Of a DNA stretch of 64,000 bases, positions 4,022-35,026 are shown piece after piece (positions within the stretch are counted from its first letter, which is position 1; each line of letters opens with the position of its first letter). Under the pieces are notes generated by a model, which ran no database searches, was not told where the DNA came from, and was given only the letters and a program-made list of their open reading frames with translations. This DNA is from Pseudomonadota bacterium (lineage in GTDB: Bacteria > Pseudomonadota > Alphaproteobacteria > SP197): contig JBCCIS010000008.1 of assembly GCA_039028155.1 (NCBI GenBank), forward strand, positions 1 through 64,000. Direction: 5' to 3'. The translations under genes and the position numbers were made by a program.

Positions 4022-4101
4022 CCCGCGCTGAACGTTAACGAACCGCGCCTATCTTTCTCGATCCATGATCGACAAAGCAAGGTTTCCCTTATGGATTGGC
4101 T

Positions 4102-4335
4102 TTAGCGCCCGTCCAGCATGTGGCGGAGTTCGTCGTCTTCGGGGAAGCGGTGGTCGGCGAACTTGGAGAACAGCAAGTCGTCGCCGACGGTGATCTCAAA
4201 CGAGCCGGAGCGGCCGCCCTCGATCGTCACCTCGGCGCCGTAGGTCTCTTCGAGCAGGCTTCTCGCACGGAGCGCCCTGGGCTCGTAGTTTCACTGTACG
4301 CAGTATTCTATATGAACCTTGATCGGCTCGCTCAT
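4102..4335 (-). CDS. SelW/Rdx-family selenoprotein (in-frame UGA = Sec)
   Basis: Reading from ATG at 4333-4335 gives MSEPIKVHIEYCVQ, then TGA at 4291-4293, then 62 more codons without a stop to TAA at 4102-4104: 77 residues if TGA is read as selenocysteine. The result fits the SelW/SelT/SelH (Rdx) thioredoxin-like fold: an N-terminal beta strand IEYC, the redox motif C12-V-Q-U15, a following helix (PRALRARSLLEE), and the later strand pattern TIEGGRSGSFEITVGDDLLFSKFADHRFPE. The TGA falls exactly where relatives carry Cys or Sec. A ribosome binding site (GAGAGG) precedes the ATG. The gene lies between two amine-oxidising flavoprotein genes, suggesting a thiol-redox role linked to them (inference). 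Conventional gene finding would stop at TGA and miss it. Confidence 0.88.
4251..4285 (-). promoter_or_regulatory. Candidate bacterial SECIS element
   Basis: Starting 6 nt after the UGA of the SelW-like gene, the mRNA can fold into an imperfect hairpin: CGAGC pairs with GCUCG at the base, AGG with CCU above a two-C bulge, C with G, then CUC with GAG closing a 5-nt apical loop CGUGC. The loop lies about 22-26 nt after the UGA and has G at its second position, matching the known general form of SelB-binding bacterial SECIS elements. The fold was worked out by hand; no energy was computed. Confidence 0.6.
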
Positions 4336-4423
4336 CGCGACCTCTCTTCCAAACACGTGCTCCATTTGACCATACATGGTCGTCTCTTGCCACTGTCGGT
4401 CATGGTCCGACGGTATCGGCTCC

Positions 4424-4487
4424 GGCCCACTCCCCCGCCCGGCCACCCCGAGGATGCTGCCATGGGGGGCCGGGCAGGGGAGTGGCC
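4424..4487. other. Long GC-rich inverted repeat
   Basis: The left arm (4424-4449) and right arm (4464-4487) form a near-perfect stem of about 20 bp with a roughly 15-nt loop. It stands between the end of the dimethylglycine dehydrogenase-like gene and the SelW-like gene. No T-run follows on the minus strand, so it is not a standard intrinsic terminator. It might attenuate or process the transcript, protecting the upstream mRNA or lowering SelW expression (inference). Confidence 0.55.
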
Positions 4488-4513
4488 CGGCGATGCCATT
4501 CGCCAAAAGTGCG

Positions 4514-6931
4514 CTAGCCGCGCAACCGCTCGTTGGCCGGATCAAACAGCGGCTCGGTCTCGACCCGGGCCGGGCGCATGTCGCCCAGGATCTCGATGGC
4601 GAACCCGTCGGCGGTCACGTCGATATCCGGATTGAGGTAGGCGAGCGCTATGCTCTTGTCGACGACATGGCCATAGCCGCCGGAGGAGACGACGCCGGCG
4701 ACGTCGCCGTTCAAGAGCACCGGTTCGTTGGCCCAGCAGTCGGCGTCGTCGGCATCGACGGTCATGGTGACGAGCTTCCAGCGCAGGCCTTGATTGTGCC
4801 GGGCGATCAACCCGTCGCGGCCGATGAAGTCGCCCTTGTCCAATTTGACGAAGCGGTCGAGGCCGGCTTCGAACGGGGTTGTGTCGGCGGTGAACTCCAT
4901 GCCCCAGCGCCCGTAGCTCTTTTCCAGGCGCAGGCTGTCGAGCGCCCGGCCACCGGCGAGCGACAGGCCCATATCGGCGCCCGCCTTGCGCAGCGTATCG
5001 TAGACATGCATCTGGTATTCGGCGGGCATGTGGAGCTCGTAGCCGAGGTCGCCGGTAAACGAGACCCGCATCACACGGCACGGCGCCATGCCGACATCCA
5101 TGTCGCGCGCGGTCATGAACGGCATGGCGTCGCTTGAAACGTCGGCGCGAGTGACCGCTGCCAAGAGTTCGCGCGAATACGGCCCGGCGATCGCCAGGCC
5201 GGCGCGCTCCGTCGTCTCCGAGCGGATGGTGACGCCGGACGGCGGCATGTGTTCGTCCCACCAGCGGCGGTGGAACCGTTCGGCGGTGCCACCGCCGACC
5301 ACATAGAAGGACTCCGGTCCCAGCCGCGTCAGGGTGAAGTCGCCGATGATGCCGCCCTTGGCGTTGAGCATGGGCGCCAGCACCATGCGGCCAATCTTCT
5401 GCGGGATGCGGCAGGCGAGCACGCGGTCCAGGAAGGCTTCAGCGCCCGGACCTTCGACCAGGTACTTGGCGAAGGTCGAGATCTCCAGCATGCCGACACC
5501 GGCACGCAGCGCCCGGCATTCCTCGCCGACCGGTTCGAACCAGTTGGGTCGGCGGAAGCTCAGGATGTCGCGGCCTTCGACGCCATCCTTGGCAAACCAC
5601 AGCGGCCGCTCGAAGCCGTAGGCCGAGCCGAACACCGCGCCTTCTTCCTTAAGCCGGTCATAGACCGGCGAGGTCCTGAGCGGCCGACCCGCCGGGCGTT
5701 CCTCGGCCGGGAAGGCGATGGCGAAGCGCATGCCGTAGTTCTCGGCCGACTTGATGAGGGTGTAGCTCTTGGTTGCCCAGTCACCGAAGCGCGCGACGTC
5801 CATCGGGAAGAGGTCGAGCGGCGGGCTGCCCTCGACGATCCATTCGGCAAGCGCCCAGCCGACGCCGGCGCTCTCCGAGAAACCGGGGATCATGCCGCAG
5901 GCGACGAAGTGGTTTCTGAGCCCCGGCATCGGCCCGATCAGGACCGTGCTGTCCGGCGAGTACATCATCGGCCCGTTGACCACCCGCTTGATGCCGGCAT
6001 TGGCGAAGCACGGCACCAGTGAGATTGCCGCTTCCATGTTCGGCATCATGCGTTCCATGTCGTCGGGCAGGAGCTCCTGGCCGAAATCCATCGGCGTGCC
6101 GTCGACCGACCAATGACGGCCATGGCGCTCGTAGGCGCCGAGCAACAGGCCGTCGCGTTCCTGGCGCAGGTAGAACTCGCCGTCCTGGTCGCGGGTCAGT
6201 GGGATTTCGAAGCCCAAATCCGCGAGTTCCGGCACGGTCTCGGTCACCACATATTGGTGCTCCATCGGCACCAGCGGCAGGCGATAGCCGGCCATGGCGG
6301 CGACTTCGCGGGCCCACAGGCCGGCGACATTGATGACGACCTCCGCATGCACCGTGCCCTTGGGCGTCGAAACATCCCACGTACCGTCGGCGCGCTGACT
6401 CAAGGCTTCGACCGGGCACTGGCGTTCGATCGTCGCGCCGCCCATGCGCGCGCCCTTGGCGAAGGCGTGGGTCACGCCGCTGGGATCGACATGGCCGTCA
6501 TCGGGGCCGTACATGCCGCCCAGGACCCGTTCGGTATCGACCAGCGGATTGATCTTCTTGATCTCCTCGACGCCGACCATCTCCAGATCGACGCCCAGAT
6601 AGCGGGCGCGGGCGCGCTGCACCTTCAACTCGTCCAGACGGTCCTGACTGGTCGCCAGATAAATGCCGCCGCAGCGGTGTAGGCCGACCGATTGTTCGGT
6701 CTCCTCCTCCAGCTTGCTGTAAAGCTTCAGCGTGTAGTCATGCAGCCGCGCGATGCTGGCATTGCCGTGCATGGCGTGAATGTTGGCGGCGGCATGCCAG
6801 GTCGAACCGGCGGTCAGCTCGGCGCGCTCCAGAAGCATGATGTCCGACCAGCCAAGCTTGGTGAGGTGATAGAGGATACTGCATCCAAGAACGCCGCCGC
6901 CGATGACAACGGCTTGGGTTTCGGTTTTCAT
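4514..6931 (-). CDS. Dimethylglycine/sarcosine dehydrogenase-like flavoprotein
   Basis: 805 residues in two halves. The N-terminal half is a DAO-type FAD domain: GGGVLG near 11-16 and the AGSTWHAAA motif at about 42-49, whose His46 corresponds to the covalent-FAD histidine of mammalian DMGDH/SARDH. The C-terminal half is a folate-binding GcvT-like domain (FTGDLGYELHMP, LRLEKSYGRWGMEF, then the C-terminal barrel). This layout oxidatively demethylates dimethylglycine, sarcosine or related N-methyl amines and passes the one-carbon unit to tetrahydrofolate. I chose the ATG at 6931 because it begins just before the FAD motif; an in-frame start 27 codons earlier would run into repetitive DNA. It is the first gene of the minus-strand group continuing to the SelW-like, FAD and PhyH genes. 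Confidence 0.85.
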   Translation of the reverse strand: MKTETQAVVIGGGVLGCSILYHLTKLGWSDIMLLERAELTAGSTWHAAANIHAMHGNASIARLHDYTLKLYSKLEEETEQSVGLHRCGGIYLATSQDRLDELKVQRARARYLGVDLEMVGVEEIKKINPLVDTERVLGGMYGPDDGHVDPSGVTHAFAKGARMGGATIERQCPVEALSQRADGTWDVSTPKGTVHAEVVINVAGLWAREVAAMAGYRLPLVPMEHQYVVTETVPELADLGFEIPLTRDQDGEFYLRQERDGLLLGAYERHGRHWSVDGTPMDFGQELLPDDMERMMPNMEAAISLVPCFANAGIKRVVNGPMMYSPDSTVLIGPMPGLRNHFVACGMIPGFSESAGVGWALAEWIVEGSPPLDLFPMDVARFGDWATKSYTLIKSAENYGMRFAIAFPAEERPAGRPLRTSPVYDRLKEEGAVFGSAYGFERPLWFAKDGVEGRDILSFRRPNWFEPVGEECRALRAGVGMLEISTFAKYLVEGPGAEAFLDRVLACRIPQKIGRMVLAPMLNAKGGIIGDFTLTRLGPESFYVVGGGTAERFHRRWWDEHMPPSGVTIRSETTERAGLAIAGPYSRELLAAVTRADVSSDAMPFMTARDMDVGMAPCRVMRVSFTGDLGYELHMPAEYQMHVYDTLRKAGADMGLSLAGGRALDSLRLEKSYGRWGMEFTADTTPFEAGLDRFVKLDKGDFIGRDGLIARHNQGLRWKLVTMTVDADDADCWANEPVLLNGDVAGVVSSGGYGHVVDKSIALAYLNPDIDVTADGFAIEILGDMRPARVETEPLFDPANERLRG

Positions 6932-33127: not shown

Positions 33128-35026
33128 ATGATCGATCTTTCACGCCATGCAGATTCATCGATCGCGGTCTTCGGACTGGGCCGCTCCGGCGTGTCAAGTT
33201 CACTCGCACTGGCGGCTGCCGGTGCGCAGGTCCACGCCTGGGACGATGATCCCGCACGGCGCCGACTTGCCGCCGACAAGGGCGTCACGCTCAACGACCT
33301 CTACCGCCTGGAATGGGACATCGTGCGTGCGCTGGTCTTAAGCCCCGGCGTGCCGCTCACGCATCCGGCGCCACATCCGCTGGTCGCCCGCGCCATGGCG
33401 GCCGGTGTCGAGGTGATCGGCGACATGGAGCTGTTCGCCCGTTCGCGTCCGCCCGGACGCGTGGTCGGCGTGACCGGCACCAATGGCAAGTCGACGACAT
33501 CGGCGCTGATCGCGCATCTGATCCGTTCGTCAGGCCGCTCCGTGCAGCTGGGCGGCAATATCGGCACGCCGGTGCTCGATCTCGATCCGCTGGATGATGA
33601 CGGCATCTATGTTCTGGAACTGTCGTCCTATCAGCTCGATCTCATTCGCTCGCTGGTCAGCGATGTCGCGGTTCTCCTCAACATCTCGCCCGACCATGTC
33701 GAGCGCCACGGTGACTTCGCCAACTATATCGCGGCGAAGACACGCATCTTCTCGCGCCGGGCGTCTCATCAGACGTCGGTCATTGGCGTCGACGACGATA
33801 TCTGTCGGCGCATTCACGCCGAGCTCGCCGGTCGGCGCGGCCGCACCATCATTCCGGTCTCCGTGCTGCGACGTATCGCCGACGGCGTCTACGTGAAGAA
33901 GGGCGTGATCATCGATGAGACGTCGGGCAAGCCCGACGAGGTCGTCGATCTGAACAAGGTCAAGGTGCTGCCCGGCGTGCACAACTGGCAGAACGCCGCC
34001 GCGGCCCTTGCCGCCATTCGCGCGCTCGGCATTCCCGCCGAAGAGGTCGCCAAGGCGTTCAAGACATTCCCCGGCCTGGCGCACCGCCAGGAAGTCGTGT
34101 GCAAGGTCGGCCGGGTGACCTTTATCAACGATAGTAAGGCGACCAACGCGGCTGCCGCCGCGCGTGGCCTTGCCTGTTACGACCGTATCTACTGGATTGC
34201 CGGTGGACGCGCCAAGGAGGGCGGCATCGCGACGCTCTCTCCCTACTTCCCGCGGATGGCGCATGCCTTCCTGATCGGAGAGTCGGCCGGTGCGTTCGCC
34301 CAGACATTAGAAGGACGCGTGCCGTACACCGTAAGCGGCGATCTTGTGACAGCCGTCAAGCAGGCGAGCGACATGGCGCTCGCCGACCGACGCGCCGGCG
34401 CGATCGTATTGCTGTCACCGGCATGCGCGTCTTTCGATCAGTTCTCCGATTTTGAAGATCGGGGGAACAAGTTCCGTGAAATCGTGCTCGAAGAGAAGAG
34501 AAAGCGCGATCAGGAACTTGAGAAGGACACATCTCTTGTCCCACCCGCAACACGCAAAAGGGGGTCTGACATGGCCACGAAACGTTCTACGGCCAAGAAG
34601 TCAACTGCCAAAAAGAAAGCTGCCAAACGCAAGGCTCCGGCCAAGCGCAAGGCCGCGACCAAGAAGAAAGCCGTTAAGCGCAAAGCGCCGGCGAAACGTA
34701 AGGCTGCGACCAAGCGCAAAGCTCCGGCTAAGCGCAAAGCCGCAACCAAGAAGAAAGCCGTCAAGCGCAAAGCTCCGGCCAAGCGTAAGGCAGCGACCAA
34801 GAAAAAAGCCGCCAAGCGTAAGGCTCCGGCCAAGCGTAAAGCCGCCAAGCGTAAGGCTCCGGCTAAGCGTAAAGCCGCCAAGCGTAAGGCTCCGGCTAAG
34901 CGTAAAGCCGCCAAGCGCAAGGCTCCGGCTAAGCGTAAAGCCGCCAAGCGCAAGGCTCCGGCCAAGCGTAAGGCTCCGGCCAAGCGCAGGGCGCCTGCCA
35001 AGAGGAAGACCGCTAGGAAGAGATGA
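33128..35026 (+). CDS. murD: MurD fused to a histone H1-like Lys/Arg/Ala-rich tail
   Basis: 632 residues against about 450-470 for MurD. Residues 1 to about 456 are a complete D-glutamate ligase: IAVFGLGRSGVSS, ATP loop GTNGKSTT at about 117-124, and the normal C-terminal SPACASFDQFSDFEDRGNKFREIVLEE. Without a stop the frame continues through a charged linker (457-481) into residues 482-632, made almost only of Lys, Arg, Ala, Pro and Thr in KRKAPAKRKAA-type repeats, like bacterial H1-like proteins (Hc1/Hc2, AlgP). The tail should bind nucleic acid. The gene lies in the usual place between mraY and ftsW, and its stop overlaps the ftsW start by 4 nt. An internal ATG at 34571 may produce the tail alone. 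Confidence 0.88.
   Translation: MIDLSRHADSSIAVFGLGRSGVSSSLALAAAGAQVHAWDDDPARRRLAADKGVTLNDLYRLEWDIVRALVLSPGVPLTHPAPHPLVARAMAAGVEVIGDMELFARSRPPGRVVGVTGTNGKSTTSALIAHLIRSSGRSVQLGGNIGTPVLDLDPLDDDGIYVLELSSYQLDLIRSLVSDVAVLLNISPDHVERHGDFANYIAAKTRIFSRRASHQTSVIGVDDDICRRIHAELAGRRGRTIIPVSVLRRIADGVYVKKGVIIDETSGKPDEVVDLNKVKVLPGVHNWQNAAAALAAIRALGIPAEEVAKAFKTFPGLAHRQEVVCKVGRVTFINDSKATNAAAAARGLACYDRIYWIAGGRAKEGGIATLSPYFPRMAHAFLIGESAGAFAQTLEGRVPYTVSGDLVTAVKQASDMALADRRAGAIVLLSPACASFDQFSDFEDRGNKFREIVLEEKRKRDQELEKDTSLVPPATRKRGSDMATKRSTAKKSTAKKKAAKRKAPAKRKAATKKKAVKRKAPAKRKAATKRKAPAKRKAATKKKAVKRKAPAKRKAATKKKAAKRKAPAKRKAAKRKAPAKRKAAKRKAPAKRKAAKRKAPAKRKAAKRKAPAKRKAPAKRRAPAKRKTARKR
34571..35026 (+). CDS. Possible internal gene: histone H1-like basic protein
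   Basis: In the same frame as murD an ATG at 34571 is preceded by a strong ribosome binding site (AAAAGGGGG, 5 nt spacing). Initiation there would give a 151-residue protein beginning MATKRSTAKKSTAKK and composed almost wholly of Lys, Arg, Ala and Pro repeats, a typical free-standing H1-like nucleoid protein. This looks like a former separate gene whose upstream spacer lost its stop codon, so that MurD reads into it. Whether the tail is made only as a fusion, only alone, or both cannot be told. Translation would couple to ftsW through the ATGA overlap at the stop. Confidence 0.55.
   Translation: MATKRSTAKKSTAKKKAAKRKAPAKRKAATKKKAVKRKAPAKRKAATKRKAPAKRKAATKKKAVKRKAPAKRKAATKKKAAKRKAPAKRKAAKRKAPAKRKAAKRKAPAKRKAAKRKAPAKRKAAKRKAPAKRKAPAKRRAPAKRKTARKR
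34808..34972 (+). repeat. 33-nt tandem repeats in the H1-like tail
   Basis: Five consecutive 33-nt units start at 34808, 34841, 34874, 34907 and 34940, each coding for 11 residues (AAKRKAPAKRK). They differ at only a few third-codon positions (cgt/cgc, gct/gcc, aaa/aag). Upstream (about 34620-34807) the repeat is longer and less regular and includes ATKKKAV segments. Confidence 0.85.

Follow-up and report, generated by a model that had tools for sequence, protein, structure and literature searches.

Known SelW-like Selenoproteins and Their Relatives

No prokaryotic selenoprotein family is more abundant in the Global Ocean Sampling than the SelW-like proteins, with 427 selenocysteine (Sec) forms and 56 Cys homologues (PMC2398784), and a 2026 review gives the family with a CxxU motif and the Pfam model PF10262 (PMC13188914). 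A survey of 2006 reported that, in organisms that use Sec, Cys homologues of SelW-like proteins are few or absent, and that formate dehydrogenase was the only selenoprotein in the Sec-decoding alphaproteobacteria known at that time (PMC1794560). As for the eukaryotic relatives, human MIEN1 (C17orf37; 2ljk) and mouse SelW (2npb) belong to the same superfamily and have CxxC or CxxU in the loop after the first strand (PMC3527542).

The gene reported here was found in a stretch of alphaproteobacterial DNA of 64,000 nucleotides, hereafter the window, and it is a further member of this known selenoprotein family, not a new kind. It resembles the prokaryotic SelW-like (SELENOW-like) proteins, PF10262 and TIGR02174, in its length, its CxxU motif, its family match and its predicted use of Sec; it differs only in being an additional member, in an alphaproteobacterial lineage where the domain search found no Sec formate dehydrogenase.

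Gene Frame and Family Assignment

The coding sequence spans positions 4102-4335 on the minus strand, and was defined by family models and orthologues. Read from 4335 to 4102, this strand gives MSEPIKVHIEYCVQ-TGA-NYEPRALRAR...DGR-TAA, 77 codons in all: the ATG is at 4335-4333, the Cys codon at 4302-4300, the TGA at 4293-4291, then 62 sense codons follow up to the TAA at 4104-4102. With TGA taken as a residue, the 77-residue product is MSEPIKVHIEYCVQUNYEPRALRARSLLEETYGAEVTIEGGRSGSFEITVGDDLLFSKFADHRFPEDDELRHMLDGR, where Cys12 (4300-4302) opens the CxxU redox motif and is an invariant column of the alignment, and the in-frame TGA (4291-4293) is residue 15, the second active-site residue of C-V-Q-U. 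A possible ribosome-binding site, GAAGAGAGGTCGCG, was read from the sequence ahead of the ATG, at 4336-4349 of the same strand. A preliminary description had claimed a 77-codon ATG frame broken only by this TGA, with the order Cys-Val-Gln-TGA and 62 further sense codons; translation of the minus strand agreed exactly on each point, and supplied the strand, which had not been given.

Regarding its family, the continuous translation matched Pfam Rdx (PF10262) with 68.2 bits (7.2e-19, cut-off 22.6) over residues 6-72, a range that spans the TGA, and TIGR02174 (CXXU_selWTH) with 62.8 bits, above the cut-off of 34.2; these curated models cover nearly the full length, as expected of a member of the Rdx/SelW superfamily. 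The NCBIfam model with the top score was NF041051 (SelTWH_Campy, SelT/SelW/SelH family (seleno)protein), which aligned over nearly the whole length; unlike its members, the window protein scored 75.3 bits against a curated cut-off of 88, which leaves it outside that equivalog.

Solved relatives recognized by sequence include human C17orf37/MIEN1, SAV_2001, Atu0228 and mouse SelW. The AlphaFold model (mean pLDDT 89.6) has the order strand-helix-strand-strand-strand-helix, with C12-V-Q-U15 predicted in the loop between strand E6-12 and helix H18-32, as in a thioredoxin-like fold. The top Foldseek structures for this model were the bacterial SelW-related proteins 2ojl, 2fa8, 2obk, 3dex and 2p0g, with TM values of 0.84-0.90. 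The CxxC proteins of this kind (Atu0228 2fa8, 2ojl, 2obk, 3dex) share the fold and have Cys at the Sec site of the window protein, whereas their identity to it is about 29% and they form a subfamily of their own, with C-x-x-C-R/S-W; both forms, CxxU and CxxC, occur in one relative (G002). MIEN1 and mouse SelW differ in being eukaryotic and of low identity to the window protein. The SelW/Rdx assignment of the preliminary description stands at the superfamily level, through TIGR02174 and PF10262; within it, the gene belongs to a CxxU subfamily of bacterial SelW-like proteins that is distinct from the CxxC paralogues.

Ordinary annotation could miss this gene, because in six-frame ORF lists it is divided between an 84-aa ORF that ends at the TGA and a 42-aa ORF from GTG 4230, and is overlapped by an antisense ORF, 179 aa long, at 4096-4635 on the plus strand. 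That antisense ORF, or the short one from GTG 4230, might be the real gene and the SelW-like frame an accident of the kind frequent in GC-rich DNA, where shadow frames abound, and the antisense strand is indeed open for 179 codons; this is the least probable of the alternatives considered, and it is refuted because the minus-strand frame has homologues: its translation matches the curated SelW families across the TGA, and its orthologues from other genomes can be aligned with it almost from end to end. Judged from its sequence, the SelW-like frame is far beyond chance, since the continuous translation matches both Pfam Rdx and TIGR02174 through the TGA.

Conservation of the TGA across Genomes

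Two sets were used for comparison, one of 16 genomes of the same order (own genome included) and one of 385 sampled genomes of the class. In the order, a close homologue was present in 9 of the 16 genomes (the own one and 8 of the 15 others), each with exactly one internal TGA, and all nine also had selA; the two order genomes without selA (G004 and G015) had only a distant CxxC homologue, and G003, the only other member of the genus in the set (95% complete, 500 contigs), gave no match to the SelW-like gene. In the class, a match occurred in 44 of the 385 genomes: the 28 best (E below 1e-13) had one in-frame TGA each, so that the codon is kept in 28 of 28 strong matches, and the 16 weaker ones had zero TGA, those inspected being CxxC paralogues of a different subfamily. 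selA was found in 27 of the 28 genomes with the TGA versus 29 of the 357 others (Fisher p = 8e-25, a value that overstates independence because the genomes are related, though spread over many families); the only TGA genome without selA (G026) is 77% complete. As for the CxxC paralogue of G001 (C179:1239-1448, L026), it has a TAA directly before CxxC, where its relatives have Tyr, and it is possibly a broken copy or an assembly error.

These data bear on the reading of the TGA as the product of a pseudogene or of a sequencing error, in which a Cys codon (TGC or TGT) became TGA and left a truncated peptide of 14 residues. One-base changes of this kind are common and the organism is known from a draft assembly of 118 contigs; against this, TGA stands at this one site in 9 order genomes and 28 class genomes, the protein beyond it is conserved, and its presence goes together with that of selA. 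Conservation in independent genomes refutes this explanation, and its probability is very low. An in-frame UGA at the redox Cys position of the orthologues is instead the mark of a selenoprotein, and the check on close relatives proposed in the preliminary description came out in favor of Sec: in both the order and the class, the protein past the TGA is kept, and so is the TGA itself.

Selenocysteine Machinery

The own genome (5.31 Mb, 118 contigs, 97.4% complete) encodes selA (583.9 bits), selB (447.5 bits), selD (290.5 bits) and a tRNA-Sec (82.4 bits; anticodon TCA by ARAGORN), all within a 7-kb stretch of contig C6, at 99904-106588. The organism had been predicted to decode Sec, with a search of the rest of its genome for the machinery as the proposed check; the search returned the complete set, and not the absence that would have spoken against the prediction. 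The SelD ORF (L030:3773-5998, minus strand, 741 codons) has, by eye, an NAD(P)H-dehydrogenase-like part at its N-terminus, an extension that resembles the Ndh-SelD fusion described in PMC2398784. By eye as well, the residue at GGCGAK in the SelD domain is Cys and not Sec.

If TGA had been reassigned throughout the genome, for example to Trp, this would also account for a TGA that is read through in the SelW-like gene, with a residue other than Sec. TGA acts as a normal stop in this organism, which contradicts such a reassignment: of 39 long ORFs picked mechanically in the window, 25 have TGA as their last codon, and most of the orthologues inspected also end in TGA. The presence of a dedicated tRNA-Sec, SelA and SelB, together with the Cys found at the Sec site of the structural relatives, further argues against reassignment, to which we give hardly any weight.

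Candidate SECIS Hairpin

In the bSECIS model (PMC13188914), the apical loop of 3-9 nt has a G in its first two positions, followed by G or U; the element lies 16-37 nt after the UGA, with an MFE of at most -7.5 kcal/mol and an upper stem of 4-16 bp. A putative bSECIS hairpin was located in the mRNA at 4252-4284 (minus strand), on the basis of its MFE structure, pair counts and codon bias. Its putative parts are an outer stem (4284-4281/4255-4252), an inner stem (4274-4270/4264-4260) and an apical loop CGUGC (4269-4265) that starts 21 nt after the UGA, all on the minus strand. The window hairpin agrees with the model in loop, distance and MFE, having a 5-nt loop with G at position 2 followed by U, and an MFE of -15.6 kcal/mol. 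The inner stem comprises 5 pairs in most homologues; in the window copy, 3 contiguous loop-proximal pairs are followed by an internal loop and further pairs, with a G-A mismatch at the fourth pair.

The alignment of 33 distinct 51-nt stretches, taken ungapped from the TGA onward, gave the loop consensus CGUGY, with positions 24-28 (C-CGUG) invariant in all 33 homologues. Standard pairing occurred in 84.5% of the hairpin cells; double-changed cells were 13 versus 5.5 expected from shuffles, and the covariation score was 0.143 versus 0.072 ± 0.012 for the shuffled alignments, a value reached by 0 of 500 shuffles, with every slid register of the hairpin scoring much worse. Compensatory changes of the stem included CCCUC/GAGGG to CGCUC/GAGCG or to CCCGC/GCGGG. 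Finally, the Arg codon in the loop was CGT in 33 of 33 sequences, versus 11 of the 161 other Arg codons of the same genes.

The MFE of the hairpin was not below that of synonymous-codon shuffles (mean z of -0.10 for the 33 sequences and -0.54 for the window copy), so its support comes from conservation and covariation, not from stability; RNAalifold alone predicted only the three loop-proximal pairs. A search of Rfam families at the locus returned only chance matches, microRNA-type and similar, below gathering scores. The alignment of the 33 distinct sequences is usable as a seed to find further members.

Proposed Decoding and Function

The conserved TGA, the Sec machinery of the own genome and the conserved, covarying SECIS-like hairpin together support the reading of the TGA as Sec advanced in the preliminary description: the stop-like codon almost certainly encodes Sec, whose incorporation we infer from the frame, the family, the TGA, the machinery and the hairpin as read in the DNA. 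The best explanation of the whole, which we consider very probable, is a small redox protein with a thioredoxin fold and a Cys-Val-Gln-Sec active site, a member of the Rdx/SelW superfamily; at UGA 4293-4291, SelB and Sec-tRNA(Sec) would insert Sec, brought there by the putative bSECIS just downstream, inside the coding sequence. During thiol/peroxide redox chemistry, Cys12 and Sec15 would join in a selenenylsulfide that is afterwards resolved. What is known of the family, together with the work on MIEN1 (PMC3527542), makes a thiol-disulfide redox role likely.

As for the gene neighborhood, no conserved partner gene emerged across the 12 homologous loci compared; within the same family, just a few members have a PhyH-like dioxygenase and FAD (DAO-type) oxidoreductases nearby, which is too weak for a pathway assignment. 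The present analysis sets right a gene that is often cut short in standard annotation, and gives an alphaproteobacterial genome a well-supported Sec gene together with its RNA signal.

Sec Genes Elsewhere in the Genome

A second Sec gene was found at C30:33126-33830 on the minus strand (L074, L086); it has 235 codons, encodes a redoxin/deiodinase-like protein with EFGSYS-TGA-AYC, a UxxC arrangement, and its TGA is kept in six of the six genomes of the family with a homologue. No Sec formate dehydrogenase was detected in the domain search of the own genome, because the molybdopterin-oxidoreductase matches, seven in all, were without an internal stop; the AhpD-like (CMD) matches also had no internal stop. 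A Cys form of the close CxxU subfamily was found in none of the 385 sampled class genomes. These data agree with the 2006 survey on the scarcity of Cys homologues and extend its set of alphaproteobacterial selenoproteins (PMC1794560). Tentatively, and with less confidence than doubt, a Sec-obligate SelW-like subfamily and the deiodinase-like protein, not formate dehydrogenase, might be what maintains the Sec machinery in these alphaproteobacteria.

Other Features of the Window

At positions 1-531, the window has a 78-bp tandem repeat (6.9 copies, 91% matches), and the 206-codon frame that runs through it (3-623) had no Pfam match. A Mur ligase (MurD-like) ORF at 33128-35026 on the plus strand runs in frame into a long Lys/Ala/Pro tail, histone-H1-like, with KRKAPAKRKAA repeats and a tandem repeat at 34667-34971; this tail could be a separate gene that starts from an internal Met (MATKRSTAKK). 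Finally, judging from translations only, the region from about 26000 to 51300 holds an ordinary-looking division and cell-wall cluster (ftsI, mur genes, mraY, ftsW, ftsA and ftsZ), after which come recN and ligA.
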